From positions 4,154,001 to 4,218,000 of the forward strand of contig OW203771.1 in assembly GCA_934045905.1 (NCBI GenBank): a stretch of 64,000 nt of DNA, given 5' to 3'. Numbering within the stretch: the stretch's first letter is position 1; each line of letters begins with the position of its first letter. The DNA comes from Leuctra nigra. Taxonomy: Eukaryota; Arthropoda; Insecta; Plecoptera; Leuctridae. Below, in pieces: positions 9,101 to 59,974 of the stretch. Both the position numbers and the translations under genes were made by a program. The notes under the pieces are model-generated. The model saw nothing but the letters and a program-made list of their open reading frames with translations. It did not search any database and was not told where the DNA came from.

Positions 9101-9407
9101 AGATCGCCCTCATGGCGACGCTCATCGCCTTGGAGACTATGCAAGACGCAGCCACAACGCCCTCCTCGTGTCTCCACCCCCACGTCACATCGGCGAGATC
9201 ACCCTCATGGCGACGCTCATCGCCTTGGAGACTATGCAAGACGCAGCCACAACGCCCTCCTCGTGCCTCCACCCCCACGTCACATCGGCGAGATCGCCCT
9301 CATGGCGACGCTCATCGCCTTGGAGACTATGCAAGACGCAGCCACAACGCCCTCCTCGTGCCTCCACCCCCACGTCACATCGGCGAGATCGCCCTCATGG
9401 CGACGTT
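6174..9407. repeat. 95-bp GC-rich minisatellite, about 34 tandem units
   Basis: The unit runs through CATCGGCGAGATCGCCCTCA, GCGACGCTCATCGCCTTGG and CAAGACGCAGCCACAACGCC, with point variants between units. A variant with GTCGTCGACACAT replaces the CATCGGCGA part near 6208, 6313 and 8136. One unit near 8780 has a small deletion. Because 95 is not a multiple of three and the unit lacks stops in all plus frames, reading frames of up to about 1,000 codons run through the array in three registers. These are a by-product of periodicity, not evidence of a gene. The flanks are AT-rich. By analogy with the exon-derived arrays at 38-56 kb it may have been seeded by a GC-rich exon, but no parent exon is visible. 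Confidence 0.9.
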
Positions 9408-21195: not shown

Positions 21196-21227
21196 GTAAG
21201 TATAGTATTATCATTGGTTATTAATAG

Positions 21228-30500: not shown

Positions 30501-32821
30501 TATTATTATGAAAACCGCCCTAAAACACTGTTTTCACGGCCCTCTAGCGCGCAAAGGGCGTAACCTATTGTTCCCAAATTTGGTATATGTTGTAGGGTGG
30601 GCCATAGCTCGAAATTAAGATATATCGCAACAATGTGAGATTTTCCAATTTTAGGATCCAGTAGGCCGAAAATGCCACTTTGATGCTTACAGTAAAAGTG
30701 GGTTTGCTCCAGCCTTTATATGAGAGTGTGCGCGCGCCGTACGACTTGGCTGGCGTGGAGCGACCGCTCCACTAGATTACTATACTAATTTGTGTACTTA
30801 CTATGAATTCCTGCAATTTTCTGAGTAATTGATCATTGAATTTAATTATTTAATTAAAATGTCAACTTGCACGCTCTTTTCAAGTCTTTATTCAAATTAT
30901 GATTACCTACCTATGTGAAAAATAATTATAATAGAATAGAATATATTTATTAGCAATAGAGAGGAACTTTTAAAGACAACATTTGTGGCCATAACTCTAT
31001 GAAGATCTGAAAAAAATAGAGATAATTTATGTCAGATTTTCCAGTAAATGAATATTTTGATTTCAGTGAATGAACCAAAGAAGATATCAAAGAAAACGTC
31101 TGTCAGAGTTATTTCAAGTAAACAATGCAGCAAGAAGATGTCGTGGAGTACTAAGGGGCTACCTGAATCTGTGTTCTGTGTTGAACAAGCAGACCAGCTT
31201 GGGACTTGTGTGGTAAGTTTCCATCACCGCTTTCAACGTGTGTGGCCGATATAGAGTTATCCCGTAAGACGCTGCAGTGGCTAGGCGCGTAGGAACTACT
31301 TCGTTCATGGGAGGGGGGGGGGGGGTTGCGGCACCCAGGAGGGAAGACGGGGGGGGGGGGGGGGCATTTTTTAGAATTTAAACCATTTAAAAGTGAAGCA
31401 ATTAAGAAGCAAACGGAAGCGAGCGGGAATCGCAAGGTTCGTCAGAACGTTTTTTTGAAATTTTGTCTTCCCACTAAATAATATTAAAATGTCAGATAGT
31501 AACGACCCATTACAACTTAATAGACTAAATAATGCCACACACTGGAGGCCAAGTCTTGAAACTTACGCTTTCAAGACGCAAACGCTCTCGGACGTCATAA
31601 AGTCCCATTTACTGTAAGAATGATGACCTTGAAATCTACTGTCAATTGTTTTAATAGGTTTTAATATTGTTTTAATGACTGTATAATATATGTAATATTA
31701 ATTGTAATGTTAATAAATTGTTTCGAATAGATTGCTGGATGACAATCAAATAAGTGGCTTGACTTTATGTTTCAATGTCGATCACTCTTACAGTAAATGG
31801 GACTTTATGACATCCGAGAGCGTTTGCGTCCTGAAAGCGTAAGTTTCAAGACTTGGCCTCCAGGTGTACACATTGACTTCTGTTACGACCTCAAAGTGTT
31901 AAATACGATATTTTTTGTAAAATTTAATCGTATTTAACACTTGAGGGCGTACCAGAGGTCATAAAGTTGTGAAATTGTGTTTCATGGACAGCTACAATCT
32001 ACGAAACTTTGTAAATTCTTTCCTTGAAAACTATTCATCACACAACAAAAATAATACCACAATATCTGTCTTCAACAACATCTCAACTTTCATAAAATAT
32101 TTATAATTCTAAAATCGGGCCGGGTAGTTAGCGTGGCATTGAAGAGTTTTTTAATCTATTTTTATCAATATCTTTTACCAATGTAATAATTGTTAACAAA
32201 ATAGGACGTTGTACGAGTATTCAGAACAGTTCAATGAAAATAATTTCGAAATTATTTGAACTTATTCCAAACTATGATCATAGTTTGGAATAAGTTATGA
32301 GTTTTGAAATTATTTTCATTGGACTATTCTAAATACTACTCGTACAATGCCTTATTTTGTTAACAATTACAATGGTAAAAGATATTGATAAAAATCGATT
32401 AAAAACCTCTTCAAGGTTCTACCCAGCCGTCTTAATTTCACTTCACTTCCCTATTGTGTATTTACCAAATAAATCAATGTCTTGTTCTGTCAGGCTGACA
32501 TGGGGTCTCCAGTACAGATTGTGACTTCTGATTCGTACTGCGCGTACCGTCTGAGGTGGGATTCTATAACTCCATTGCGACCGCTTAGCAATTTCTTCCA
32601 TAAGGATTAACATTGAAATAATTGCTAAGCGGTCGCAATGGAGTTATAGAATCAGGGCCCTGGTCGGCTTCGTGACCGGGCATTCAGATTGCAGCAAGAA
32701 CCGCTCGATCACCATGGCAACCAGCGTGGCGCACGTCATGCAGTGGATCGAACTTAATGTCTGGGGAAACAATACTGGTTCGACTGATACTCAGCACATT
32801 GAGTCTGAAGAAGTCGAATAA
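24544..32821 (+). CDS. Serine protease homologue domain (catalytic Ser replaced by Met)
   Basis: Exons found: 24544-24597, 24750-24880, 25694-25812, 31067-31212, 32494-32555 and 32656-32821 (TAA 32819-32821). The joined frame reads SLSEK|KCEEYGR, a linker typical of insect CLIP-type proteases, then FPHM|AAVSHSALK and GTLISERYVVVAAHAL, where His survives but the usual following Cys is Ala. Later come VISSKQC, FCVEQADQLGTCV|ADMGSPVQI in place of GDSGGP, and ALVGFVTGHSDC with a C-terminal helix. Ser195 is therefore Met, so it should be noncatalytic, like insect SPHs that act as cofactors. The exon holding the Asp between 25812 and 31067 was not found; that stretch is mostly transposons. AATAAA is at 32860-32865. 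Exon 24544 is phase-compatible with 21195, so this may be the second domain of one protein or a separate gene. Confidence 0.62.
25384..25600. repeat. MITE family F fragment
   Basis: It shares GCTCAATAAATCTGATTG, CTAAGCGATCTCCTTG and CACTCTAGTAGGTG with the element at 33966-34177. It lies in the intron before exon 25694. Confidence 0.4.
26447..26745 (+). mobile_element. Family B element, copy 3 (leader only)
   Basis: It contains the terminal hairpin and leader through CGTGAAAACAGTGAAATTA, then loses similarity. It is closest to copy 1, sharing AACATACCGTAAATGCC. Confidence 0.6.
26772..27720. repeat. AT-rich direct repeat pair
   Basis: A block with TTAGTGCGTTTGTGA, GGTACCCTTACTAATT and CGATGGCACCAACCTGAG occurs near 26775-26930 and again at 27405-27590, followed each time by GGTATCYAAAG-like sequence. 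It is noncoding. Confidence 0.5.
27880..28166. mobile_element. Foldback element family C, copy 1
   Basis: The arms pair through CTTGAAGAGTTTTTAATCGA and TTTTTATCAATATC...TAATTGTTAACAAAATA. The right end is CTACCCAGCCGTCTTAA, shared with copies at 32105-32438 and 49267-49540. Confidence 0.5.
28172..28341. mobile_element. Small foldback element (family D)
   Basis: ATAATAAAAACTTCCGGA and CAAGTTGTGGACAATA on the left are matched by TATTGTCCACAACTTG and TCCGGAAGTTTTTATTAT on the right, giving about 35-bp arms in 170 bp. Confidence 0.6.
28916..30777 (-). mobile_element. Family B element, copy 4, inverted relative to copy 2
   Basis: It starts with the roughly 400-bp palindrome (CCCCATAAAAAACACTCCG to its complement ending near 29317). 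It then runs through complements of the CCGGAAGTGACGTCA modules (exact at 30320-30334), and ends with the hairpin and CTAGAT. Together with copy 2 it brackets three protease-homologue exons. Confidence 0.65.
31313..31360. repeat. Poly-G tracts in intron
   Basis: Two G runs of at least 13, separated by a short GC-rich spacer. Similar homopolymers occur at 17.2, 17.55, 34.94, 47.53, 49.78, 50.85, 53.97, 57.49, 58.04 and 58.14 kb, mostly inside MITEs. Confidence 0.7.
31546..31863. mobile_element. Foldback element in the last introns of the protease homologue
   Basis: CTGGAGGCCAAGTCTTGAAA, CTTACGCTTTCA, GACGCAAACGCTCTCGGA and CATAAAGTCCCATTTACTG on the left are matched in inverse order on the right, an arm of about 85 bp. 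A smaller hairpin (AGTGTTAAATACGAT) follows at about 31897-31945. Confidence 0.6.
32105..32438. mobile_element. Foldback element family C, copy 2
   Basis: It is almost a complete palindrome, including ATAGTTTGGAATAAGTTAT near the centre. It ends ACCCAGCCGTCTTAA about 55 bases before exon 32494. Confidence 0.6.
32494..32555 (+). CDS. Protease homologue exon with degenerate GDSGGP
   Basis: Phase 0 from TGTGTG at 31212. It encodes ADMGSPVQIVTSDSYCAYRL and two bases of the next codon. Alignment of C-ADMGSP-VQ to C-GDSGGP-LQ puts Met at the catalytic Ser. The donor is AG|GTGG. Confidence 0.6.
32556..32655 (+). mobile_element. Palindromic MITE that constitutes an entire 100-nt intron
   Basis: The intron is GTGG, then a 34-bp arm (32560-32593, starting GATTCTATAACTCCATTGCG), a 26-base loop, the perfectly matching inverse arm (32620-32653) and AG. 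Splicing AG|GTGG...ATCAG|G restores the trypsin frame (R-ALVGF). Only six bases lie outside the element, so a pre-existing intron could not have been there. The insertion itself most likely made the intron. Confidence 0.72.
32656..32821 (+). CDS. Last exon of protease homologue
   Basis: It encodes ALVGFVTGHSDCSKN, then a helix VAHVMQWIELNVWG and an acidic tail, stop TAA at 32819-32821. The arrangement matches the GITS-x-G-x-x-C ... Y-x-x-WI end of trypsin domains. Confidence 0.65.
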
Positions 32822-36780: not shown

Positions 36781-36996
36781 TTAGAAGGGTTTCTTGATGT
36801 TAGATAGCGCCACTAGCTCCAGGGCGCGCAGGAAGCCCCTGTAGTTGACGTCCTCCCCGCCCGGTCGCTCCACGGAGAAGCACTTGAGCACGACGTCCAT
36901 CTCGCGACTGGAGATCCAGGTGTTCATGTCCCGCACAGTCAGTGCCTTCTGGAACTGCAGCGAGGTCACCAGGCCGCAGTGCTGCCGGTCAAAGTC
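36781..36996 (-). CDS. EF-hand gene, last exon
   Basis: 72 codons starting DFDRQHCGLVTSLQF directly after the acceptor and ending at TAA (36783-36781). On this strand an AATAAA (36782-36777) overlaps the stop codon, which would leave a very short 3' UTR if used. Confidence 0.75.
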   Translation of the reverse strand, partial: DFDRQHCGLVTSLQFQKALTVRDMNTWISSREMDVVLKCFSVERPGGEDVNYRGFLRALELVALSNIKKPF

Positions 36997-39900
36997 CTGC
37001 GGGCACGGCAGAAGTTGGAGGTTTTCCAGTGGAGAAAGATATGTGAAATCACTTCATTTTGCAAGCCTGGGCTCAAAACAGTTGCCGCACAGTTGCCCAT
37101 TTAGAGCACAACCAAAGGGTACACGGTTATCAGAATATTTTTCTTCGCACGTCCCTAAAAGAATCTTCGTCCTTTTCTCATTATATTTAAAAGTGGAGCT
37201 TGTAGCAAAAGGGCAAAATTAATTGCAAAATTAAAATTAGCAAAATTGATGGCAAAAGAGACTGAGAACGTACGAGCTAATCATCCTTTTGTCTGGGTTT
37301 TACACAGGCATTTTCCGCATCCTTTTGGCGCACATCGTCGTTTCAGGATTCAATCAATACCATAGCACATTTATCAAAGATTTCATGTATCTACATTATG
37401 GATATAGGTATTTGGGATACAATGTACGGATATGAGATATGGTATTGAAGTATAGCTACACGTACAAAATATCAAGAAGGTTAATATCGCAATAAGATGT
37501 CAAGAGCAACATACAAAAATGACTACAGCCTTAGACTAAATTACAGCCTTTTGAGTAATCAGACTATTCGACAAACCAATGCTAATATTTGAAGCTTCCC
37601 TTCGTCGAAAAGGAAATTGGAGAATACTTAGTGTACAATAATTTCATGCGAGTGATTGTCGTACGGACATGTCATGGTGTTTTGGTTTGACATCTTCAAA
37701 TGTTTGTAACGGAAAGCAACTTCTTTCAGGCGCGGAGATTTTATACGTTTCCAATTGAAGAGTCACAATCACTGGTGCGTTTGACGATATCAAAGCAATA
37801 CTTTCTGGTAGATTGTGAGGATGTCTAAGAAGGTGTTGTACCTGGAAGAGCGACTCGAGGTTCATGTTGGGCCGAGCCGCGAGCTTCGTCATCGCCATCG
37901 ACAGCGTGTGTCGCTCGTCGAAGTCGAGGAAGTTGACGTCGCCGTCGTAGACCACCAGGTGCTGCAGCGGCGTGACGAGCGGTGCGCGCTCCAGACATGC
38001 CTGCGTGAACGCCTCCTCCAGCACGGCGCAGAAGCGGCGGTATTCCACCCAGCCGGGCCGCATGGGCGACGCGAACCTTTAGGCACGAGCACACAGGTTA
38101 CACAGTGCCGTCCTTGAGCTCCAGACACGCCTCCTCCAGCACGGCGCAGAAGCGGCGGTGTTCCACCCAGCCGGGCCGCATGGGCGACGCGAACCTTTAG
38201 GCACGAGCACACAGGTTACACAGTGCCGTCCTTGAGCTCCAGACACGCCTCCTCCAGCACGGCCCAGAAGCGGCGGTGTTCCACCCAGCCGGGCCGCATG
38301 GGCGACGCGAACCTTTAGGCACGAGCACACAGGTTACACAGTGCCGTCCTTGAGCTCCAGACACGCCTCCTCCAGCACGGCCCAGAAGCGGCGGTGTTCC
38401 ACCCAGCCGGGCCGCATGGGCGACGCGAACCTTTAGGCACGAGCACACAGGTTACACAGTGCCGTCCTTGAGCTCCAGACACGCCTCCTCCAGCACGGCG
38501 CAGAAGCGGCGGTATTCCAACCAGCCGGGCCGCATTGGCGACGCGAACCTTCAGGCACGAGCACACAGGTTACACAGTGCCGTCCTTGAGCTCCAGACAC
38601 GCCTCCTCCAGCACGGCGCAGAAGCGGCGGTGTTCCACCCAGCCGGGCCGCATGGGCGACGCGAACCTTAAGGCACGAGCACACAGGTTACACAGTGCCG
38701 TCCTTGAGCTCCAGACACGCCTCCTCCAGCACGGCGCAGAAGCGGCGGTATTCCACCCAGCCGGGCCGCATGGGCGACGCGAACCTTCAAGCAGACACAC
38801 AAGTTGAAGGAAACGCGTGAAAGTGGTTGTGAAAAGCTCGTAGGAAGCGTATGCGGATTCAATATACCTACAAATTGCCGATTAAGGCTAAGCAAAAAGG
38901 CTAAAACATGCTTTTTTCATCTTATTCCGGAAAATACACTGATCACAAAAAAATCAACACAAATGTGATATAATATTGAATAAAATTCCGTGTAAAACTC
39001 CGATTTTTAGAACAAAAAATATTTTTTTTGAGACACACAACACATCTTGCTTTACTGACAAAAAAATATACGACAACAAACCAAAAATTTGATGAAAATA
39101 TTAATTTGTTTAATTTTGGATTGATGTATACTTAATTATTTTATCAAGTTACGTCGTTTAAATAATCAGCCGTAGTGAAGTGACGAAGAAAGATATAATC
39201 ATTAGCCGTCATATACTTGACTAATCATATACATTTCATTTCGATCGGTTGAATGGTTGGGATTGGGCATTGCGTTCAAAAACACACAAAACTAAATAGT
39301 CCCGCTACCGAACAACTAAGCAGCCATAACTCACACGTCCATGATGGTGCAGAGCTCGTGCTGCGTGAGCCGGAAGCGACAGCAGTCGAGGCCGCGCACG
39401 AAGTCGTCGCGCGTGACGACCTGCTCGTTGTGTCTGTCGTAGTCCTCGAGGAAGTTCTGCGGGCGGAGGCGCTTGCGCACCACCTCGCCCTTCAGCCGCG
39501 CGAGGATCTCGACGATGTCCACCTCCCGGGCCGTCGCCTCCCTCGCCCGGGCCTCGGCGTTCACCTCGTTCATCTTCATCACGTAGCCGGTGTACTACGA
39601 GTAGAAACATTGACGGCAATGTGAAGCCATTTACAGCCTCGTGATCTGCAGAAGTTGCGTCCGCAGTCCTCAACACCACAAGACCGTGTTTGTAATTCCT
39701 ATTTTGACAATCATCGTTCGAAACTAAATTGTCAAACAGCTATTTTCCTCACCAGCGGCTCCTCGAAGGACTTGGTGTCCAACTCCCTGAAGAGCCAGAA
39801 GTAGTTGAAGCCGAGGTCGTCGTTGAACCTCTGTTCGAGCGCGTAGAGTTCCTCGTCGGACAGGAGGAGGGCGTTGCAGGAGAGACATTGGCGGAACTGT

Positions 39901-42900
39901 CCCCGGCTCACGTGTCCGTTGTTGTGACTAGAACAAGGACAACGTTGAACCTCTGTTTCTCGTCGGACAGGAGGAGGGCGTTGCAGGAGAGGCACTGGCG
40001 GAACTGTCCCCGGCTCACGTGTCCGTTGTTGTGACTAGAACAAGGACAACGTTGAACCTCTGTTCCTCGTCGGACAGGAGGAGGGCGTTGCAGGAGAGAC
40101 ACTGGCGGAACTGTCCCCGGCTCACGTGTCCGTTGTTGTGACTAGAACAAGGACAACGTTGAACCTCTGTTTCTCGTCGGACAGGAGGAGGGCGTTGCAG
40201 GAGAGGCACTGGCGGAACTGTCCCCGGCTCACGTGTCCGTTGTTGTGACTAGAACAAGGACAACGTTGAACCTCTGTTCCTCGTCGGACAGGAGGAGGGC
40301 GTTGCAGGAGAGACACTGGCGGAACTGTCCCCGGCTCACGTGTCCGTTGTTGTGACTAGAACAAGGACAACGTTGAACCTCTGCTCCTCGTCGGACAGGA
40401 GGAGGGCGTTGCAGGAGAGACACTGGCGGAACTGTCCCCGGCTCACGTGTCCGTTGTTGTGACTAGAACAAGGACAACGTTGAACCTCTGCTCCTCGTCG
40501 GACAGGAGGAGGGCGTTGCAGGAGAGACACTGGCGGAACTGTCCCCGGCTCACGTGTCCGTTGTTGTGACTAGAACAAGGACAACGTTGAACCTCTGCTC
40601 CTCGTCGGACAGGAGGAGGGCGTTGCAGGAGAGACACCGGCGGAACTGTCCCCGGCTGACGTGTCCGTTGTTGTGACTAGAACAAGGACTACGTTGAACC
40701 TCTGCTCCTCGTCGGACAGGAGGAGGGCGTTGCAGGAGAGACACTGGCGGAACTGTCCCCGGCTCACGTGTCCGTTGTTGTGACTAGAACAAGGACAACG
40801 TTGAACCTCTGCTCCTCGTCGGACAGGAGGAGGGCGTTGCAGGAGAGACACTGGCGGAACTGTCCCCGGCTCACGTGTCCGTTGTTGTGACTAGAACAAG
40901 GACAACGTTGAACCTCTGCTCCTCGTCGGACAGGAGGAGGGCGTTGCAGGAGAGACACTGGCGGAACTGTCCCCGGCTCACGTGTCCGTTGTTGTGACTA
41001 GAACAAGGACAACGTTGAACCTCTGCTCCTCGTCGGACAGGAGGAGGGCGTTGCAGGAGAGACACTGGCGGAACTGTCCCCGGCTCACGTGTCCGTTGTT
41101 GTGACTAGAACAAGGACAACGTTGAACCTCTGCTCCTCGTCGGACAGGAGGAGGGCGTTGCAGGAGAGACACCGGCGGAACTGTCCCCGGCTGACGTGTC
41201 CGTTGTCGTGACTAGAACGAGGACTACGTTGAACCTCTGTTCAAGCACGTAGGGCGTAGATGCTTTAAAGTACTACGTCGAGGGTTCACAAGAGCCAACC
41301 TGCCATGTTCAGCATTGGGAAGAAGTATTGCATACAGTTTTTGGCCAGGACACGATGGTCTTTCCATTACCTAGACACAATGGACATTATAATTCATTGA
41401 CAAACCATAGAGATTCATATACTTACAGAGAGGGGCAAGTAGATAGCCAGCCTTGGTATGATGCGATGTACATTGTCAGGGTAGATCTGAGCATGCTCAG
41501 CCACCATCTTGGAGATTATTTCAAAAATTACTTTAAAAATGGCACCCCCCTCGATTGTAATGTTGTTGGCAAGAGACTTGAATGTTACTTTGTACTAACC
41601 TTCAGTGCATACTTCACAGTAACAAACAACACAGAACAAATAAATGTACAGTAAAAACAAGATATAATATTGTAATAGTCTTCTGATTCAAGTTAAAAAC
41701 GTGTTTCTAGTAAGTTTAAAATTTGACAGCTCAAAGTAATTTTTTCACTGCCTTCCGAATTAATTTTCCATTTCAGTGGCAGTGAATTATTTAATATCTC
41801 CAATATGGAGAAAAAGGATCTTTCAAAATTAGTCAAGCATTAACCAGTAGTTACCCCTCTCTGTAATATATCTCTATGGACAAACTACCTGTCCGTAGAG
41901 TGACTCCACAACCCCTTGGCCTTACACTGTGGCCAATTTTGACGCTTAAACGCATCAGACTTGTCACTTAAGCCTGGCTAAGCATCATTGTTGGATTTAT
42001 AAAAATATTTATTTATTTATTTGACTAGATTGGTTACATACATAACATTAGTAACGTCAAAACACAAAATCCCATCAACATTCATTATTACAATAATCAA
42101 CAAAACTACAAACAGAATAAAAACATTTTTCCATAAGAAATTTCCTTAATACAATTTTAAATTTGTCTTTATCAATACTCAAAACTTTGAGGTCTTTATG
42201 TAAAACATTAAAAAGTTTACACCCCATATAAGTAGGTCCATTTTCAAATGAAGCTAGCCTATGTCATAGAATGTGCTAGAATGTGTCCTACAGAAAACTG
42301 TCTACAATTCTGCAGACCCTGATTCACAAAACTTTTCCACCGGGAAACCTCTTATTTCACTGCTTATTAGATACACCAAAGTGGGGTAAGCTATCACCCG
42401 GGAAAAAAGCTGTGTGAATCGACGTGAAGACTGACCTGTCGTAGGCGCCGAACGCCGGCTTGAGGATAATGCCGCGGTTCCTGCACCTGGTCTTGACCTT
42501 CATCATCGTCTCCTCGCAGAGGTCGCGCGTCTCGGTGTTGACCGTCTGCCACTCGTTGCCGCCCAGCCGGGGCAGCTCGAGCACCTCCCGGGGCGGCGCC
42601 ACCACCTGGTAGTCGGGCATCAGCTCCAGACACTTGGTCGTGAACACTGCCAGAAGATCAGACGAGTGACCGCGATGAAGAATAGTAAAGGAAGGAGACG
42701 GCTGGTGTATTGGATACCGCGGTTCCCGTCAAATCACCGAGGTCAAGCAACATTGAGCAGTACTTGGATGAGTGAACGTTCAACTCTGGCTTGCTAGTTG
42801 CTGCCGTTGGGCCAGAGAGACTGGGGTGTGTGAGGGTTAGTGTGACGACCTCCCTCAACTTGTTACAGTCTCTCGACGGCGCGGGTTGTGGAGGCCTATG

Positions 42901-44973
42901 CCTAATGAATGAATATGTCAAAAACTTTCACATGTTCAATTTTGGTATGTTTTCTAATATGTGTAAAAATTTCAGAATCCTATCTAGGTATTATTTTCGT
43001 TATAGAGGGTGATTTTTTTATTCTCCATCCGGTATGGTTCCAAACATTATTTTGCATAGGTAAAAGCGTTTAATAACAATACATTTTCCAAAAAAGACGG
43101 GTTGCCGACTATAACACTGTTAGGAACTACACTTTTGAGGCATCCGCATCAGCTAATATCCTGTCAATAAACCACTATTCTACAACAATCTTCGTGAAGG
43201 GAGAAAGCGACTTATTGATACAAAAGGGATGCAGTACCTGAAGTGGTGGTCATGGAGTCTCCCCACTTAATCTAGACTTGAACCGTTCACTGACCTTGGT
43301 CGACGTCGTCGACGAAGGTGGCGTAGCAGATTCTGTCCGGGTCGTTGGGGTCGGCGTAGAAGCGGAGGATCATGGCCAGCTCCGGCTCGGCGATGTAGAG
43401 GCGGTCGATGCCGCCCAGCCCGATGCCGTCCAGACATCGGCGGAACTGCGACACCGTCACGCGGCCGCTGTGCATCGGGTCGAAGTCCTGGGGAGGTCAG
43501 AGGGTTAGGCGCAGTCATGTGAGCGATGTGGAGGTCGACGCCGTCCAGACAGCGGCGGAACTGCGACACCGTCACGCGGCCGCTGTGCATCGGGTCGAAG
43601 TCCTGCGGAGGTCAGAGGGTCAGGCGCAGTCATGTGGGCGATGTGGAGGTCGACGCCGTCCAGACAGCGGCGGAACTGCGACACGGTCACGCGGCCGCTG
43701 TGCATCGGTTCGAAGTCCTGGGAAGGGGGAAGGTCAGAGGGTGCTAGCTAACTTAGGGCCAGTTTTTCAATGCCTTGCTAAATTTTAAACAGTCAATTAG
43801 GACTATATTGCCATGGCAACAACCAATGACAATCCTCGAATGACTGTTTAAAACGTAACTACTGGTTAAGCAGACTATTGAAAGACGTTAGCTAGTCACC
43901 CAGAACAAAGACTGGCCCTGAATGTTCTAATGCCTAAGACTACTGACCTTGAAGAACTGTCCGGTCTGCATCCTGCTGACGAGGACGTGTCTCTGGACGC
44001 GCCGCATCACCACGTGGAGCGCCGCGATCTCCGGCGTCGCCTCCAGCACGGGGTGGAAGATGCTCTGCTTGCCGAACACGGTGGCGGCCCGTATGCGCCC
44101 GATCTCCGGCCGAGGCAGCTTCGGCAGCTCGGCGCTGATCGCCTTGCCGGGGTAGTGCAGCAGCACGTCCTGCGAACACGCCCGAGCACACCCGATCATG
44201 GCCGAACACGCCCGAGCACACCCGATCATGGCCGAACACGCCCGAGCACACACGATCATGGCCGAACACGCCCGATCATGGCCGAACACAGCCGAGCAGA
44301 GCCGACCATAGTCGAGACATATGGAAGCGATTTACTTGTAATGTTATTTATAACTTATTTTCGTGGACTCTTTCAAAGCCTATTGTCTAGATTTTCTAAT
44401 AGGTTGACGAAGGTTGATAAATCGACTAAATGTTTCATTTAGTAAACTATCAGAGTATTACCGCATTATTTAATAATTAATAAATAATTGTTTAAAAAAA
44501 ATGAAAAAGAAATTAATTGTTCAGTTCTAAGTCAATTTAATTTTACTGAAAAACAATTTTTTGTTTGTTTATATCTTATCTAAAGATAAATTTACACAAT
44601 TTTAACTAGAAAGTTAACACTTCCATATTATTCTTTCGCGTAAAATAATAAAAAAATTCTGGAAGTTCTTATTGCATTCCTGATTATAAGATTCAAAACA
44701 TTCGTAAATTGAACCAGTCAAACATACAGATCCCATTGAATGTACAAGCGCTGACGACGTACTCACCCCGCCCACGTCCAGCATGCACTTCTCGTCCATG
44801 TACTTGGTGATCAGGTCGACCGCCTGCACGAAGGCGACGTAGTTGAGCGTGTACGAGTCCTTGATGAACTTCTTGACGAGCAGCTGGAAGTCGTCGGCCG
44901 ACAGCAGGATGTTGAGGTGGTTGAGCACGCGGGCGAAGTGGGCGAACGTCACCACGCCGGTGTTCTTGGCGAT
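36781..44973 (-). CDS. Multi-EF-hand protein, eight 3' exons (5' end not found)
   Basis: Exons in transcript order: 44973-44767, 44169-43948, 43487-43295, 42646-42436, 39927-39753, 39594-39335, 38076-37842 and 36996-36781. All seven junctions agree in phase and give 572 codons plus stop. At least four EF-hand-like loops are visible: DFDPMHSGRVTVSQF, YDSHNNGHVSRGQF, DYDRHNEQVVTRDDF and DFDRQHCGLVTSLQF. Each is followed by a helix and a second paired helix. The spaced D-x-D-x-x-x-S/N-G pattern is only partly canonical, so calcium binding may be weak at some sites. The overall pattern resembles EFCAB6-type and ciliary EF-hand proteins, but I cannot name the orthologue. The exons are markedly GC-rich against AT-rich introns. 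Four of the eight acceptors head tandem arrays made of the acceptor plus exon start. No exon upstream of 44973 is recognisable before the divergent fucosyltransferase gene. Confidence 0.75.
37842..38076 (-). CDS. EF-hand gene exon 7 (of those found), array-bearing
   Basis: The acceptor is CTAAAG|G; the exon has one base plus 78 codons. It encodes FASPMRPGWVEYRRFCAVLE then YDGDVNFLDFDERHTLSMAM, and ends at CCAG|GTAC. Six further copies of the acceptor and exon start lie upstream on the transcript. Confidence 0.72.
38077..38790 (-). repeat. 118-bp array of splice acceptor plus exon start (7 acceptors)
   Basis: Acceptor positions step by exactly 118: 38077, 38195, 38313, 38431, 38549, 38667 and 38785. 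Each unit has about 45 bp of intron end (GTGTAACCTGTGTGCTCGTG) and about 73 bp of exon start (GTTCGCGTCGCCCATGCGGC). Acceptor variants are CTAAAG, CTGAAG, CTTAAG and TTGAAG. Confidence 0.9.
39335..39594 (-). CDS. EF-hand gene exon 6 (of those found)
   Basis: The acceptor is TCGTAG|TAC; the exon is phase 0 to phase 2. It encodes a basic/acidic helix (AREATAREVDIVEILARL) and the EF-hand DYDRHNEQVVTRDDF with LTQHELCTIMDV. The donor is GT|GTGAGT. It has no tandem array. Confidence 0.75.
39753..39927 (-). CDS. EF-hand gene exon 5 (of those found), array-bearing
   Basis: The acceptor is TTCTAG|T; the exon has one base plus 58 codons. It encodes SHNNGHVSRGQFRQCL, DEELYALEQRFN and a second half FNYFWLFRELD. 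The donor is GTGAGG. Confidence 0.75.
39928..41240 (-). repeat. 107-bp array of splice acceptor plus exon start (13 acceptors)
   Basis: Acceptors lie at 39928 + 107n, up to 41212. The intron part of each unit is only about 15-20 bases (TTGTCCTTGTTCTAG); the rest is exon start (TCACAACAACGGACACGTG onward). The outermost unit keeps extra exon sequence (CTACGTGCTTGAACAGAGG), which marks where the first duplication broke. Confidence 0.9.
41990..42265 (-). mobile_element. LINE 3' end fragment in an EF-hand gene intron
   Basis: The minus strand reads KLFNVLHKDLKVLS...KFKIVLRKFLMEKCFYSV, a LINE RT C-terminus. It ends in repeated AAATA (complement at 42009-42023). Confidence 0.55.
42436..42646 (-). 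CDS. EF-hand gene exon 4 (of those found)
   Basis: The acceptor is CTGGCAG|TG; the exon is phase 1 in and phase 2 out. It encodes VFTTKCLELMPDYQVVAPP through CRNRGIILKPAFGAYD, the linker leading into the next EF-hand. It has no array. Confidence 0.75.
43295..43487 (-). CDS. EF-hand gene exon 3 (of those found), array-bearing
   Basis: It opens with the EF-hand loop DFDPMHSGRVTVSQF directly after the acceptor. It continues with YIAEPELAMILRFYADP and CYATFVDDVDQ, and ends phase 1 at CAAG|GTCAGT. Confidence 0.75.
43488..43740 (-). repeat. 115-bp array of splice acceptor plus exon start (3 acceptors)
   Basis: Acceptors lie at 43488, 43603 and 43718. The units carry GACTTCGACCCGATGCACAG downstream of the AG. 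Their far ends include GTCGACCTCCACATCGC, a copy of sequence deeper in the same exon. Confidence 0.85.
43754..43921. mobile_element. Small MITE in EF-hand gene intron
   Basis: AGGGCCAGT at the left and ACTGGCCCT at the right, with matching TTTAAACAGTC / GACTGTTTAAA inside. Confidence 0.4.
43948..44169 (-). CDS. EF-hand gene exon 2 (of those found)
   Basis: The acceptor is TTCGCAG|GAC; the exon has 74 codons, phase 0 at both ends. It encodes HYPGKAISAELPKLPRPEIG and HVVMRRVQRHVLVSRMQTGQ, and ends FFK, the entering helix of the EF-hand continued in the next exon. Confidence 0.75.
44170..44310. repeat. 30-bp minisatellite directly at the exon acceptor
   Basis: Four to five copies of a unit around AACACGCCCGAGCACACCCG and ATCATGGCC begin three bases before the acceptor of exon 44169-43948. 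This array contains intron sequence only, unlike the other arrays. Confidence 0.8.
44767..44973 (-). CDS. EF-hand gene, most 5' exon found, array-bearing
   Basis: 69 codons, phase 0 at both ends: IAKNTGVVTFAHFARVLNHL, then LLSADDFQLLVKKF and YVAFVQAVDLITKYM, an EF-hand-like helix pair. The donor is GTGAGT. Confidence 0.75.
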
Positions 44974-46005
44974 CTGGACAAGAGGGAGGCGTTAACGACG
45001 ACCAGGTGGAAGTCAGCAGGATGTGGAGGCGGGCGAAGTGGGCGAACGTCACCACGCCGGTGTTCTTGGCGATCTGGACAAGAGGGAGGCGTTAACGACG
45101 ACCAGGTGGAAGTCAGCAGGATGTGGAGGCGGGCGAAGTGGGCGATCGTCACCACGCCGGTGTTCTTGGCGATCTGGACAAGAGGGAGGCGTTAAGGACG
45201 ACCAGGTGGAAGTCAGCAGGATGTGGAGGCGGGCGAAGTGGGCGATCGTCACCACGCCGGTGTTCTTGGCGATCTGGACAAGAGGGAGGCGTTAAGGACG
45301 ACCAGGTGGAAGTCAGCAGGATGTGGAGGCGGGCGAAGTGGGCGATCGTCACCACGCCGGTGTTCTTGGCGATCTGGACAAGAGGGAGGCGTTAACGACG
45401 ACCAGGTGGAAGTCAGCAGGATGTGGAGGCGGGCGAAGTGGGCGATCGTCACCACGCCGGTGTTCTTGGCGATCTGGACAAGAGGGAGGCGTTAACGACG
45501 ACCAGGTGGAAGTCAGCAGGATGTGGAGGCGGGCGAAGTGGGCGAACGTCACCACGCCGGTGTTCTTGGCGATCTGGACAAGAGGGAGGCGTTAACGACG
45601 ACCAGGTGGAAGTCAGCAGGATGTGGAGGCGGGCGAAGTGGGCGATCGTCACCACGCCGGTGTTCTTGGCGATCTGGACAAGAGGGAGGCGTTAAGGACG
45701 ACCAGGTGGAAGTCAGCAGGATGTGGAGGCGGACGAAGTGGGCGAACGTCACCACGCCGGTGTTCTTGGCGATCTGGACAAGAGGGAGGCGTTAACGACG
45801 ACCAGGTGGAAGTCAGCAGGATGTGGAGGCGGGCGAAGTGGGCGATCGTCACCACGCCGGTGTTCTTGGCGATCTGGACAAGAGGGAGGCGTCAAGGACG
45901 ACCAGGTGGAAGTCAGCAGGATGTGGAGGCGGGCGAAGTGGGCGAACGTCACCACGCCGGTGTTCTTGGTGATCTGGACAAGAGGGAGGCGTTAAGGACG
46001 ACAAC
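44974..46005 (-). repeat. 100-bp array of splice acceptor plus exon start (11 acceptors)
   Basis: Acceptors lie at 44974 + 100n, up to 45974, each reading TCTTGTCCAG|ATCGCCAAG. Within each unit the exon part decays after HFAR into CTCCACATCCTGCTGACTTC. That is a shortened version of the exon's CTCAACATCCTGCTG...GACTTCC, so the unit fuses two exon stretches. Confidence 0.9.
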
Positions 46006-54500: not shown

Positions 54501-57500
54501 GAAAATGTCTAGTTTTGCCTAGCCAAACTTGGTCAAACAAAAATTGAACGTTCAATAAATCTGATAGGCTGATAAATGTAAGATCGCACCATCAGAAGTC
54601 AGTCCAAGCGATCTCATTGTCTCACTCTAGTAGGTGACCTCACATTTCAATGATAATAACAAGTTTTGATTGGTTATGGGACATGACTAGCAGTCATTCA
54701 AATTTTGTCAAGGTTCATTAATGTTGAATATTCAAGAAACACTATTTTCTTTTCAAAATGAAACCAAAACATAACAAGTAATAGTATTGCCAGTGGATTC
54801 AATGGTTTTGCATCCTACTCTGCTAAACCACACATAACCACGTCGACTCGACTTTCCCTCAGCTACGATCCGCTCGAGTCGTGCACGGTGTCGAACTGCC
54901 TGATCAGCTACGACGAGGACCAGCACCTCGCCACCGCCGACGCCGTCTTCTTCCACCTGCACCAGACGCAGGGGCCGGCGTCGCTGCCCAACGGGACGAC
55001 CGTGCGACCGAGGTCCCAGCGCTGGGTGTTCATGACAGACGAGAGCCCGTACCACGTCTTCATGCACGGCGGCCTCTTCTCGGACTACGACGGACTCTTC
55101 AATTGGTCCATGATGTATAGGTAGGTTATAGAGTTTTGAGCGAGCGTCACCATGGTATTAAGAGGCAAACGGAAGCGAACGGGAATCGCACGGTTCGTCA
55201 GAGCGTTTTTTTTGAAATGTTGTCAAAAAAAAAACACTTTCAAGAAGCACCAGAGGTCATAAAGCATTGCAGCTTGCGACATTATTTAGTCTATTAGGCT
55301 GTTATGGGTCGGTAATATCTGATTTTTTAAAATTATTTAGTGGGAAGACAAAATTTCAAAAAAACGCTCTGCCGAACCTTGCGATTCCCGTTCGCTTCCG
55401 TTTGCCTCTTAATAACCACCACAGCCGCCGAGAGAGTACGACGTGGCAAGCAACAAGACCACTCCCAATTCCAGTGGATATCATGTTGGTTCTAGACTGG
55501 ACGCCGATGTGCCCGTGCCCTACGGCCGAGCGCTGCGACTTAAGGTCCCGCCACAGCCGCCGAGAGAGTACGACGTGGCGAGCAACAAGACCACTCCCAA
55601 TTCCAGTGGATATCATGTTGGTTCTAGACTGGACGCCGATGTGCCCGTGCCCTACGGCCGAGCGCTGCGACTTAAGGTCCCGCCACAGCCGCCGAGAGAG
55701 TACGACGTGGCGAGCAACAAGACCACTCCCAATTCCAGTGGATATCATGTTGGTTCTAGACTGGACGCCGATGTGCCCGTGCCCTACGGCCGAGCGCTGC
55801 GACTTAAGGTCCCGCCACAGCCGCCGAGAGAGTACGACGTGGCGAGCAACAATACCACTCCCAATTCCAGTGGATATCATGTTGGTTCTAGACTGGACGC
55901 CGATGTGCCCGTGCCCTACGGCAGAGCGCTGCGACTTAAGGCCCCGTCACAGCCGCCGAGAGAGTACGACGTGGCGAGCAACACGACCAAGTCCACGGCT
56001 CCAACTCCCAATTCCAGTGGATATCATGTTGGTTCTAGACTGGACGCCGATGTGCCCGTGCCCTACGGCAGAGCGCTGCGACTTAAGGTCCCGCCGCAGC
56101 CGCCGAGAGAGTACGACGTGGCGAGCAACAAGACAACTCCCAATTCCAGTGGATATCATGTTGGTTCTAGACTGGACGCCGATGTGCCCGTGCCCTACGG
56201 CAGAGCGCTGCGACTTAAGGTCCCGCCACAGCCGCCGAGAGAGTACGACGTGGCGAGCAACAAGACCAAGTTCGTCGCCATCCTCGGCTCCAACTGCGGA
56301 GGACCCAACAACCGCTGGGCGTACGTCAAGATGATGCAGAAGTACATGAATATCACCGTCTACGGAGGTTGCGGTACAATCCCGTGAGTGCTCACAATAT
56401 TGGGAATGTCTCCGAAGGCGAAATGAAAGTTCAGTTTTTATTATGAAGATATTTTTGAAGACCTAAAGTATTATCAAGACCCCCTCCCTCCAATCATGGG
56501 ACACACACTATTTATATCGCAATATGGAAACTCTTAAAATGTCCTGCTCGTACAGGATAATACCGAGGGAACAAAACTTCATCAATGTTTATTTATTTAT
56601 TTATTTAATTAAATACACACAACTGAAAACACACTTTACTGTACATACACAATTAGGATATAATTATGAAATTGACATGATAAATGTAGTTCGGGCTGTT
56701 GTGGTGATACTAAGCTAAATATTTTTAAGTCTGAATCTAAGGTCTCTACTGTTAGTTGGCATAGGATGCAGGACATCATCAGGGAGATCATTCCATAGGC
56801 AGATGCCCTCAGCCGCAAGCGAGTACTTCTCGATGTTGGAGTGTGGCTGAATTCTTCTGATCTTGTGGATGTGGTCGTTCCTTCCAATGTAGTTAGGATC
56901 CAGAAGATAAGAGCCTAAGTCTGCCCAAGCTGGCTGATTCTGATAAGCCTTGTAGATGGCGATGATTCTCGAATGATTCCTGCGTTCTTCTAAAGACTCC
57001 CATCCGAGTTCGTACAATAATTCAGTGGGACCTGGAGAGATCCCGAAGGAACCTTTGACGTACCTCGCAGCTCGCCTCTGAACAGTGTCCAAGCTGTACT
57101 TGTTGCTCTGCGTGTGAGGACTCCAAATGGAAGAACAGTACTCCAACTGCGGTCGAACAAGCGTGAGGTATGCTCTCTCCTTAGCAATTTCAGGAGCACC
57201 TATTAGATTCCTCATGACGAAGTGTAGAGTACTGCTTGCTCGACTAGAAGTTCTGTTGATGTGGTTGTTCCAAGATAAGTTACTGGCGAGCCATATTCCA
57301 AGGTACTTGGAATCCTTTTGTTCTTGTAGCACTTGGGTCCCAATGGTGTATTCATGCTGGATTTCACTGCGTTTTCTGTTGAAGGTCATCTTTATAGTTT
57401 TATTTACATTTATCTTCATCTGGTTTGCCCTAGCCCAATTGTCGATGCGGTTCAGATCTTCTTCAGATCTCAATTCTCACTGTGGTTAAATTGGGGGGGG

Positions 57501-59974
57501 GGGGGGGGGGGGGGGATGCGCGGGGATGGCATCCACCCATGGGGAATATATTGATGGTTCCATCCCCCCATGTCTAATTTGTCCACTTCTCCATCCCCCA
57601 ATGAGAGATTAAAAAAAGCACTAAGTAATGTAGTTTACATCAAAATAATACCATTTTCAGAGAATTTGTCAAAGACGTCATTTGTCTAGAAGAAAATAGG
57701 CTTAAAATAACGTCAAAATCGCGTGAAAACGCACCAAATTCATTTCTGAAATTATTTTTTTCCCGTAACTGTGCGCCCCAGACCAGATTGGGGTCTAAAA
57801 ATTGATTTCAAAGTGTCAAAAAACCAAATAACGCTCTGCGGGGCTAGGTTTTTTGGGCATGCGGGGGGGCATTATTGGAGTGAAGACTGTGAAAATTTTA
57901 AAAAACAAAATACACCTCAGAACGTCTCAAAATTGATTTCAAAGTGTCTAAAAACAAAAAACGCACAGCGGGAAAACGTGGGGGCGCCCCCCACACACCC
58001 CCCTCAACGCGTGGCAAGTTGTGTTCCTTCACTTGTCCCCCCCCCCCCCCCCTAGCAGAAATCCTGCCAGTATGGTCGTGGAAATGTGTGTAGATCACCC
58101 TTTTTCTTCCCTTTCCATGCATTTACGTTCTACTCACCCCCCCCCCCCCCCCCCCTCCCATCCCCCCGCCAACCGATAGCATGGTAAACTCGTTTGAATG
58201 TGGTGGGCGGTGAATGGAGGGTAAGCGACACACAATTCCCAGACTGTACACTATCCCCCCCATGGACTGACTTCCAATTCGACCACTGAATTCTCATGTT
58301 TTAAGCCAGTAACTGACTAATGTGTGTTCCACTACAGGTGCGAAGGACACTACGGATCGGACTGCCCCGCTCTCAACGACTACAAGTTCTACCTGGCGTT
58401 CGAGAACTCTAACTGCCACGACTACATCACGGAGAAGTCTTACTTCAACGCGTACGTGCACAACGCCGTGCCTGTGGTGATGGGAGCGTCGCGCAGTGAC
58501 ATCGCTCACAGTCTGCCGCCGAACTCGTACATCCACACCGAGGACTATCCGTCGCCGCAGCATCTGGCCGAGTACCTCCTGGCGCTTGATAAAGACGACA
58601 AGAGGTGGGCTTGCACCGAGGGGCTAACAACTCATAGTTTTAGTGTGCACCTGATTTCGGATTTCCAAGATTTCCAAAGAATTCCAAGATTACTAAAGAT
58701 TTTTTAGATTTCTAAAGATTTTTTAGATTTCAAAGATTTCAAAGATTTACATAGATTTTGAAAAAATTTGAAAGAGTTCTTAATAATTTCAAAGATTTCT
58801 CAGATTTCAAAGATTTCACAGATTTCACATATTTCCTAAGATTTCATAGATTTCCAAAGATTTCGAAATATTTCCAAAGATTTTAGAGATTTTAAATATT
58901 TCTGAGATTTCAAAGATTTCCCAGATGTCAAAGATTTCCAAAGATATCATTGATTTCTGAAGAATTCTAAAGATTTCCAATGTTTTCCGCAGATTTCACA
59001 AGATTTCCGAGATTTTACGAGATTCCCAAGATTTCCAAGATTTTATGTGATTTTCAAAGATTTTGAAAGATTTCCTAAGATTTTAAAGATTTCCAAGATT
59101 TCCAGGCTAGTGTACACCAGATTTCAGGAGTTGTGTCACCCCCCCGGGTTTCACGTCATAAATAGCCACTTCCTCTCTACAAAATTGTCGCTAAAAGCTA
59201 ATTAATACCTACTTTTATATTGACGATTCTTTTTTTGTAATAGAAATCTGAAAGCAAGCTACAAACTATAAATTAGCATTTCTGAATCTGTCATGAATCA
59301 TGATCGAATACAAGCCATACTATATTCACATAATGTATAGCTCTAGAAAATGATTAGCAAGATTTTAATGGGTTACTTACAGGTATACCAGTTAAGATAT
59401 AACCGTGATTAAATTCAATCACAACACCTTCACAGCAAATTCATTCATCATCTTGTAATATTAGCATACAATGTATACCCGTAATTCCATTTCTATTTTA
59501 TCGAAGTTTTAAAGTTTAAATGCATGAAAGTTAAACAATTAATTCTAAACTGCAGCATTTTAATGTCAGTCAAAAAGAGCATCGGTAGCAGAACGGAACT
59601 AAATTCACACACTTTTAAACAAATCTGATAATTTTGCTTGAAAGCAATAAATCCTATGTGACCATCAATCATCATGTAAGTGACTAATTGTATTTGTACC
59701 CTGTTATGGAATTATGTATATGCAGCAAACCGGATCAATCCGTGAGGTGATTGATTTTGAAATGTGCTCTTGCAGGTACAACGAGTACTTCAACTGGAGG
59801 AACGAGTATGAAATATTCAATGAACACGGATACTTCGGTACGCCCGTCTTCCACTACTGCCGACTTTGCGAGGCGCTCAACTTCAATTCCAAAGAAGAGA
59901 AAATCTACACCAAGATGAATGACTTCATTGGCCTGGAGAAAGATTGCTACCAACAGAGCTGGATAATGACTTAA
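51320..59974 (+). CDS. Alpha-1,3-fucosyltransferase (GT10 family, insect FucTC-like)
   Basis: Exons 51320-51575, 53642-53799, 54863-55120, 56171-56383, 58338-58604 and 59776-59974 join with agreeing phases into 449 codons plus TAA. The first exon found encodes a type II anchor (FKVIIAVSVVMAVVWIALL), then a stem. The catalytic part has TILIWKHG, RWVFMTDESPYHVF, NWSMMYR|LDADVPVPYGR, ILGSNCGG, and the GT10 donor-site signature YLAFENSNCHDYITEK...NAVPVVMG. The enzyme would transfer fucose from GDP-fucose to GlcNAc of glycans in the Golgi. The initiating ATG lies on a missing upstream exon (the first exon here needs one completed codon). Exons 2 and 4 head tandem arrays of acceptor plus exon start, and the stop codon lies in a MITE. 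The most 3' acceptor of each array was chosen because only that copy continues into the rest of the exon. Confidence 0.85.
51856..52258 (+). repeat. Dispersed repeat R1, second copy
   Basis: Same order of landmarks as 322-715 (TTGTTGTGTGATGAATAGTT, CACAATTTGACGTCACACGC, CGTAACACAGGGAACACGGC). It ends directly at the start of the 124-bp array. Confidence 0.6.
52247..53641 (+). repeat. 123/124-bp array of splice acceptor plus exon 2 start (12 acceptors)
   Basis: Exon-start positions are 52282, 52406, 52530, 52654, 52777, 52901, 53024, 53147, 53270, 53394, 53518 and the functional 53642. Each unit has about 35 bp of intron end (ATTGCAATGTGTTTGCATGT, GCGCAG) and 88 bp of exon start (MSELGRMMYVEESITDEAR). 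Units with four Cs before ATTGC are 123 bp and in frame; units with five Cs are 124 bp. Five copies begin GTGAGC, the others GTGGGC. Confidence 0.92.
53642..53799 (+). CDS. Fucosyltransferase exon 2, functional copy
   Basis: Only this copy runs past NPNETKY into TILIWKHGPGIAHRLINRF and a donor GC|GTGAGT, phase 2. Confidence 0.8.
53929..54396. mobile_element. MITE with GGGGYTGTTCATAAA ends
   Basis: TAGGGGCTGTTCATAAAGTA at the left and TTTATGAACAACCCCTA at the right are inverse, with GTATGTTACGC / GCGTGACATTC next. It has poly-C cores. hAT is likely from the TAGGG ends, but no target duplication is clear. Confidence 0.55.
54524..54720. mobile_element. MITE family F, second good copy
   Basis: Nearly identical to 33966-34177 over AAACAAAAATTGAACGTTCA and GACCTCACATTTCAATGATA. 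It lies in fucosyltransferase intron 2. Confidence 0.6.
54863..55120 (+). CDS. Fucosyltransferase exon 3
   Basis: It encodes YDPLESCTVSNCLISYDED, ADAVFFHLHQT, QRWVFMTDESPYH and NWSMMYR up to AG|GTAGGT. These are conserved acceptor-side segments of GT10. It has no tandem array. Confidence 0.85.
   Translation, partial: LRSARVVHGVELPDQLRRGPAPRHRRRRLLPPAPDAGAGVAAQRDDRATEVPALGVHDRREPVPRLHARRPLLGLRRTLQLVHDV
55136..55155 (+). repeat. Short 5' stub of a Helitron-like family A element
   Basis: TTGAGCGAGCGTCACCATGG, 15 bases after the exon 3 donor, followed directly by a foldback element. Confidence 0.4.
55154..55412. mobile_element. Foldback element, TTAA-bordered
   Basis: TTAAGAGGCAAACGGAAGCG and CGCTTCCGTTTGCCTCTTAA border it, with arms of about 60 bp. 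A single arm of the same family is at about 31393-31470. TTAA at both ends could be a piggyBac-type target site, but the repeats themselves end in TTAA, so this is unproven. Confidence 0.5.
55424..56170 (+). repeat. 132-bp (44-codon) in-frame array of splice acceptor plus exon 4 start (6 acceptors)
   Basis: Exon-start positions are 55496, 55628, 55760, 55892, 56039 and the functional 56171. One unit is 147 bp, with ACGACCAAGTCCACGGCTCC inserted. All steps are multiples of three and the frame LDADVPVPYGRALRLKVPP...SNKTTPNSSGYHVGSR stays open throughout. Use of any upstream TTCTAG would therefore add up to five repeats of 44-49 residues to the enzyme. Confidence 0.9.
56171..56383 (+). CDS. Fucosyltransferase exon 4, functional copy
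   Basis: One base, then LDADVPVPYGRALRLKVPPQ, SNKTKFVAILGSNCGGPNNR and MNITVYGGCGTIP, with a donor CC|GTGAGT. The PYG and SNC motifs are standard GT10 positions. Confidence 0.82.
56585..57484 (-). mobile_element. 5'-truncated LINE with intact RT C-terminal frame, in fucosyltransferase intron 4
   Basis: The frame 57473-56715 (252 residues) carries thumb and C-terminal motifs of a CR1/jockey-like reverse transcriptase: INVNKTIKMTF, KYLGIWLASNLSWNNHI, YLTLVRPQLEYCSSIWSPH and VQRRAARYVKGSF. It ends DLRFRLKNI. The tail on this strand is repeated AAATA (complement at about 56588-56605). The uninterrupted frame suggests a recent insertion. The 5' truncation abuts a poly-G tract at 57490. Confidence 0.8.
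57740..58080. mobile_element. Poly-C-ended element, partner of 48240-48720
   Basis: It contains the duplicated phrase ATTGATTTCAAAGTGTC (57800 and 57930) and ends at a C run followed by CTAGCAGAAATCCTGCCAG. Confidence 0.4.
58338..58604 (+). CDS. Fucosyltransferase exon 5, catalytic signature
   Basis: It encodes CEGHYGSDCPALNDYKF, then FENSNCHDYITEKSYFN, NAVPVVMGASRSDI and EDYPSPQHLAEYLLALDKD, the nucleotide-sugar site of GT10. The donor is AG|GTGGGC. Confidence 0.9.
58640..59110. repeat. Degenerate AGATTTC-rich simple repeat
   Basis: About 450 bp of imperfect AAGATTTCCA / CAGATTTCAA words of 9-12 bp, on one strand. It starts within 40 bases of the exon 5 donor region. It is noncoding. Confidence 0.75.
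59776..59974 (+). CDS. Fucosyltransferase last exon
   Basis: After CTTGCAG. It encodes YNEYFNWRNEYEIF, FHYCRLCEALNF and IGLEKDCYQ, then QSWIMT and TAA. The sequence from 59954 on aligns with the end of the GTAACT-rich MITE, so the final six codons and the stop are element-derived. Confidence 0.85.

Follow-up and report, generated by a model that had tools for sequence, protein, structure and literature searches.

Tandem arrays of splice acceptor and exon start in two neighbouring genes of the stonefly Leuctra nigra, probable counterparts of the lancelet mirages

Background

Why would six exons of two neighbouring genes each be preceded by a tandem array of their own splice acceptor and exon start? 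The question is raised by a stretch of 64,000 nucleotides from Leuctra nigra (Plecoptera, Leuctridae; assembly GCA_934045905.1, contig OW203771.1, positions 4,154,001 to 4,218,000 of the forward strand), which was analysed whole and is called the window below. It holds two neighbouring multi-exon genes on opposite strands, an EF-hand gene on the minus strand and an alpha-1,3-fucosyltransferase gene on the plus strand; four exons of the former and two of the latter bear such arrays, all within about 18 kb. The first-pass annotation of this DNA proposed a local mutational process anchored at 3' splice sites and held that no described process fits. Our analysis points instead, with a probability of about 0.75, to ordinary GC-rich minisatellites filtered by splicing, that is, to an arthropod instance of the boundary-spanning "mirage" minisatellites of lancelets.

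Anatomy of the arrays

Periods, copy numbers and limits of the arrays were obtained with Tandem Repeats Finder, and acceptors were counted separately. On the minus strand, the EF-hand gene carries G118 (38009..38805, 118 bp x 6.8, 7 acceptors) on exon G (37842..38076), E107 (39850..41239, 107 bp x 13.0, 13 acceptors) on exon E (39753..39927), C115 (43421..43720, 115 bp x 2.6, 3 acceptors) on exon C (43295..43487) and A100 (44929..46002, 100 bp x 10.7, 11 acceptors) on exon A (44767..44973). On the plus strand, the fucosyltransferase gene carries F124 (52250..53728, 124 bp x 12.0, 12 acceptors, in units of 123 or 124 bp) on exon 2 (53642..53799) and F132 (55419..56268, 132 bp x 6.3, 6 acceptors) on exon 4 (56171..56383). 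Each parent exon is backed by the gene model, by orthologue alignment and by tblastn. The periods and acceptor counts match those first annotated exactly. Between 2 and 12 extra copies lie ahead of each parent exon, and the AG is intact in all 52 acceptors. The spacing of acceptors is constant within arrays, except for the alternation of 123 and 124 bp in F124 and a single 147-bp unit in F132.

The tandem unit spans the intron/exon boundary in all six arrays, the boundaries being backed by orthologue alignment. Read by eye, a unit comprises about 15-41 nt of intron end (only about 15 nt in E107) and continues to about 90-127 nt into the exon; the exonic limits annotated earlier (70-110 nt) are thus roughly right. 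In tblastn searches with 10 orthologues the matches covered the parent exons entirely or for the most part, whereas in the copies they were mostly confined to the first part; a few low-identity fucosyltransferase matches crossed array units. Both E107 and F132 have their left edge within exon-derived sequence. The period is divisible by 3 in only one of the six boundary arrays; both repeats that the scan placed inside exons (51488-51535 and 42567-42607) have a period of 21 bp, a multiple of 3.

Two familiar origins were considered and rejected. Common descent from one duplicated exon is not supported, in agreement with the first-pass annotation: when the 14 exons and 40 nt of flanking sequence at either end were compared with the window by BLAST, own exon and own array excluded, the array exons shared only 17-nt matches (C versus E), and the longest match between any two exons was one of 52 nt at 75% between C and H. 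Mutually exclusive exons that arose by tandem duplication are each a whole exon, acceptor and donor included. The arrays resemble these in repeating exon sequence together with acceptors, but none of their units has the end and the donor that would complete an exon: the units stop about 90-127 nt into exons that are 158-235 nt long, short of the donor, and only the last copy of each array runs on into the complete exon.

Divergence and homogenisation of the copies

The copies have a mean identity of 0.965-0.982 to the parent exon start. In five of the six arrays the intronic copies have lost short internal pieces of the parent exon (12 nt in G118, 15 nt in E107, about 18 nt in C115, 12 and 10 nt in A100, about 15 nt or more in F132; one unit per array was aligned and all units were read by eye); F124 has no such deletion, and the 147-bp copy of F132 retains 15 nt that are absent from the 132-bp copies. 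Since the deletions are common to intronic copies, multiplication among these copies would have taken place after the deletions or together with them. In E107, copies 10-11 are repeated as copies 12-13, copy 13 being the parent acceptor and having one further change. Because this two-unit pattern includes the parent copy, it points to involvement of the working acceptor in exchange between copies. The outermost (first) copies, or the sequence flanking them, depart from the inner copies. In total, 28 distinct substitutions separate copies from parent exon starts, 16 of them nonsynonymous and 12 synonymous, compared with 20.0 nonsynonymous changes expected without constraint.

The copy number rests on one assembly, and an assembler could in principle have multiplied single-copy exons. 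Such an artefact is most improbable given the 28 distinct substitutions, the shared deletions that are absent from the exons, the two-unit pattern among the copies, the 147-bp variant unit, the differing periods and the length of the longest array, which is just about 1.5 kb.

Comparison with known systems

Minisatellites that span intron/exon boundaries are known as mirages in the lancelet genes Adh3 and the globins BflGb6 and BflGb9 (PMC3087553), and also in troponin C and PGBD5, the latter with units of 60 and 108 bp (PMC3902484). The earlier statement that no described process fits therefore cannot be kept, as the BflGb6 unit is made up in the same way, of an intron 3' end and the 5' part of an exon (150-160 bp, with 6 and 3 units in two haplotypes; PMC3087553). 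The BflGb6 copies are homogenised through concerted evolution with the cluster edges exempt, reverse transcription polymerase chain reaction suggested normal splicing, and mirages occur at acceptors as well as donors by a mechanism called unclear (PMC3087553). The arrays described here share with them the boundary-spanning units, the real exon kept at the array end, the intronic position of the other copies, the homogenised copies and the exempt edges. They differ in belonging to an arthropod, in numbering six in two adjacent genes, in having up to 13 acceptors and in lying all at acceptors; moreover, the lancelet mirages have been tested for instability and splicing. Among the literature matches listed, judged from titles and abstract openings and thus weak evidence, none concerned mirages outside lancelets. 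What is new here is the phylum, the density and the acceptor-only set; the kind of structure itself is known.

Two further systems show partial likeness. Tandem arrays of dual-specific (AGGT) splice sites are reported in human UBC and VCX3A (PMC10809524), and AG|GT is likewise found at the acceptor of every unit in F124 (12/12, always as CAG|GT) and G118 (7/7). However, the UBC units are coding monomers whereas the copies here are intronic, and AGGT is missing from the acceptors of the other four arrays. Introns can also be gained when AG|GT proto-splice sites are duplicated in tandem (a process cited in PMC3087553), and there too splicing conceals what a tandem duplication close to a splice site has produced; unlike in that process, an existing intron grows here and no new intron position is seen.

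Predicted effect on messenger RNA and protein

The EF-hand gene was modelled with 8 exons (36781-44973, minus strand) and a product of 572 aa, which is 56% identical to a Periplaneta protein in an alignment spanning 100% of its length; its insect matches are mostly uncharacterised, one being EF-hand calcium-binding domain-containing protein 6. The fucosyltransferase gene was modelled with 6 exons (51320-59974, plus strand), and the best named match of its product is from Zootermopsis (50% over 84%). When exons are joined from the last acceptors, both products are colinear with their insect orthologues and all six parent exons are complete. Compared with six orthologues of the EF-hand protein and five of the fucosyltransferase, no residue is extra or missing at any of the five checkable array junctions; exon A drops out of this check, as the exon ahead of it lies outside the model. 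By contrast, of the 41 upstream acceptors outside F132, 38 lead to a stop when read through the array and 150 nt of exon; the other three, which belong to the copies just ahead of the last one in C115, A100 and F124, remain open over that length but are out of frame by 1. Since the orthologues lack extra residues and upstream reads mostly meet stops, the last acceptor, attached to the sole complete exon, is the only one that splicing is predicted to use.

Minisatellites filtered by splicing could then have arisen as follows. A short tandem duplication across an intron/exon boundary would leave one spare copy in the intron, which, released from coding selection, could acquire small deletions. 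Unequal exchange or slippage would multiply this spare copy and keep the copies and the exon start similar. Under exon definition the single downstream donor would pair with the nearest upstream acceptor, leaving the messenger RNA unchanged, and the arrays would be tolerated because only the last acceptor is predicted to be joined. Duplications inside exons would be lost because they alter the protein, GC-poor intron DNA would seldom found arrays, and acceptors would be the places that remain.

Position of the arrays and base composition

The GC content is 0.58-0.66 in the parent exons and 0.59-0.67 in the arrays, compared with 0.38 in introns outside the arrays, which bears out the annotated contrast of GC-rich parent exons and AT-rich surroundings. 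When a 115-bp segment is placed at random in the two collapsed genes, six acceptor-only placements out of six have p = 3.2e-6, and six acceptors out of six have p = 0.0018 given exon overlap and 0.021 given exactly one junction. This last value, obtained without correction for GC, favours a locally acting mutational process, linked to the 3' splice site or to the direction of transcription, that would duplicate acceptor and exon start. The same process would be in line with the polarity of the arrays, which follows transcription in two genes of opposite strand (six at acceptors, none at donors). It would also fit a GC-rich 30-bp repeat at 44173..44289 (minus strand) that likewise ends 3 nt before an EF-hand exon, exon B; this repeat involves the intron end only and is related to the boundary arrays, though not identical in design.

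Base composition and the need to preserve the protein could account for much of this pattern. There are 2222 segments of 115 bp with GC >= 0.58, of which 1159 lie inside exons, 619 span an acceptor, 217 span a donor and 227 are intronic; no array lies wholly inside an exon, even though so many of these segments do. Among the protein-preserving segments at this cut-off, 58% span an acceptor. GC-rich segments favour acceptors even at the eight exons without arrays (39.4 per acceptor, versus 18.1 per donor over all 12 donors), hence GC-rich blocks lean to the acceptor side. The preference for acceptors over donors, among segments with one junction, GC >= 0.58 and the own periods of the six arrays, has p = 0.14. 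With 115-bp segments and cut-offs of GC >= 0.50, 0.55, 0.58 and 0.60, the p values for protein-preserving segments and for segments spanning one junction are 0.004/0.047, 0.01/0.065, 0.039/0.165 and 0.051/0.177, the 0.047 at the loosest cut-off being again in favour of an acceptor-linked process. The cut-off of 0.58 lies just under the lowest array GC and was chosen after the fact, and the collapsed flanks of E107 and F132 hold some exon-derived sequence, which slightly raises the acceptor share.

As the GC and protein-preservation filters make acceptors the commonest allowed place, a process anchored at 3' splice sites, as first proposed, is not required; with six arrays it is possible but not needed, and we consider it unlikely. 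It is further disfavoured by the lancelet mirages, in which donors are also affected (PMC3087553), and by the folding of the units as RNA: one unit per array was compared with shuffled sequences, and none of the six was unusual (z -0.80 to 1.52). An RNA hairpin as the cause of the arrays is accordingly not supported.

Splice signals within the copies

Donors were scored with a scoring matrix, on which the 12 modelled donors reach 4.3-9.2 (lowest 4.27, median 8.42). In F124, all 11 upstream copies have a donor-grade GT right at the acceptor: five read CAG|GTGAGC, with a score of 10.9 that exceeds all 12 modelled donors, and six read CAG|GTGGGC, with a score of 8.3 near the donor median. In E107, ten of the 12 upstream copies contain CAC|GTGAGC at +16 (score 6.1, above the lowest real donor). 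In the other four arrays the best GT of the upstream copies scores under the lowest real donor. The annotated claim that no array contains a genuine 5' splice site thus fails for F124 and arguably for E107, and holds for the other four. Recursive sites, or zero-length exons, have as consensus a pyrimidine tract followed by AG|GTRAGT. In F124, five of the 11 upstream copies read CAG|GTGAGC, but the parent acceptor has only 53% pyrimidine at -20 to -4.

A complete branch-point module in every unit is unsupported by the distribution of a branch-point-like motif, sought with a loose pattern and present near two of the six array acceptors (A100 and C115) and six of the eight others. Given this distribution and the short intronic part of E107, a complete acceptor module need not be present in each unit.

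Weighing the evidence

Several findings weigh against the arrays being simple minisatellites hidden by splicing, among them the scarcity of the branch-point-like motif at array acceptors. Seven of the eight exons without arrays are equally GC-rich (0.58-0.68; one has 0.44), so that GC content alone does not tell which exon gets an array. The position of all six arrays at acceptors keeps a p of 0.03 after filtering for GC >= 0.58 and preserved protein with the own periods of the arrays, and loosening the cut-off to GC >= 0.50 brings it down to the 0.004 given above. None of the six lies at a donor, whereas lancelet mirages sit at both boundaries. The nonsynonymous changes fall slightly below the number expected of unconstrained sequence, perhaps because of conversion from the selected exon or of some coding use. 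The use of the last acceptor is itself a prediction, and the strong predicted donors in F124 are a hazard for which a simple model must account. Finally, each of the five upstream acceptors of F132 leads into an uninterrupted reading frame in phase with the exon, so that this array might be translated.

The last two points are also those that would fit a use of the copies, with upstream acceptors yielding protein variants or with the F124 copies serving as AG|GT recursive or dual-specific sites. Translation from the upstream acceptors of F132 would add blocks of 44 or 49 residues, the F124 copies carry donors of score 10.9 or 8.3, and human UBC makes use of a tandem array of dual-specific AGGT sites (PMC10809524). 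Such a use is nevertheless very unlikely in view of the stops met from 38 of the 41 upstream acceptors in the other five arrays and of the five aligned fucosyltransferase orthologues, which contain no such insert. Moreover, F132 has a second open frame, so its openness says little in GC-rich DNA.

A bolder proposal would have a genome-wide process multiply GC-rich exon starts with their acceptors. Working acceptors and the first codons of exons would thereby join satellite arrays of rapid turnover and be rewritten from intronic copies, and F124 would remove itself by stepwise AG|GT walking. The rewriting is suggested by the E107 pattern, which includes the parent acceptor; taken as a whole, the proposal seems to us rather unlikely. 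Minisatellites filtered by splicing remain our preferred account of the arrays.

Other features of the window

The first 118-156 residues of six EF-hand orthologues gave no convincing tblastn match in the window (one weak match was in exon H, E 0.05), and the start of the EF-hand gene may therefore lie beyond it. In that case the fucosyltransferase gene may be nested in an intron of the EF-hand gene.

Upstream, F132 adjoins a palindromic element (55156..55414) resembling a miniature inverted-repeat transposable element, with arms of 68-69 bp beginning TATTAAG; the array begins directly behind this element, inside the exon-derived part of a unit. A partial second copy of the element is found at 31401-31534. 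A degenerate AT-rich repeat of 9 or 19 bp (58660-59102) starts 56 nt downstream of the end of a fucosyltransferase exon and does not span the donor.

Elsewhere in the window, a large GC-rich array at 6336-9405 (95 bp x 32, GC 0.63) is associated with no recognised gene, and two translated stretches at its edges had no Pfam match; it could be either a plain satellite or a seventh boundary array whose exon went unrecognised. At 17631-21224 on the plus strand lie exons encoding a trypsin-like serine protease (Pfam Trypsin for 17631-17975), with a GC content of 0.44-0.52 over approximate exon stretches and no array there in the repeat scan. In addition, the motif GAGCGAGCGNAGCGAGCGTCACCA occurs in six copies, at 9929, 11886, 13189, 15575, 36610 and 61972 (<=3 mismatches; 0 expected by chance), and is likely a transposable-element end. 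One transposable-element motif had no match in the searched collections of genome contigs and viral contigs.

Conclusions

The presence of six mirages in about 18 kb of an arthropod genome suggests that the structure is not peculiar to lancelets. It also offers a simple, testable rule, namely that genes retain GC-rich minisatellites where splicing can conceal these. In gene annotation, such arrays may cause exons or repeat proteins to be predicted wrongly. Furthermore, they point to a way in which a functional acceptor and the start of a coding exon could evolve in concert with non-coding copies.

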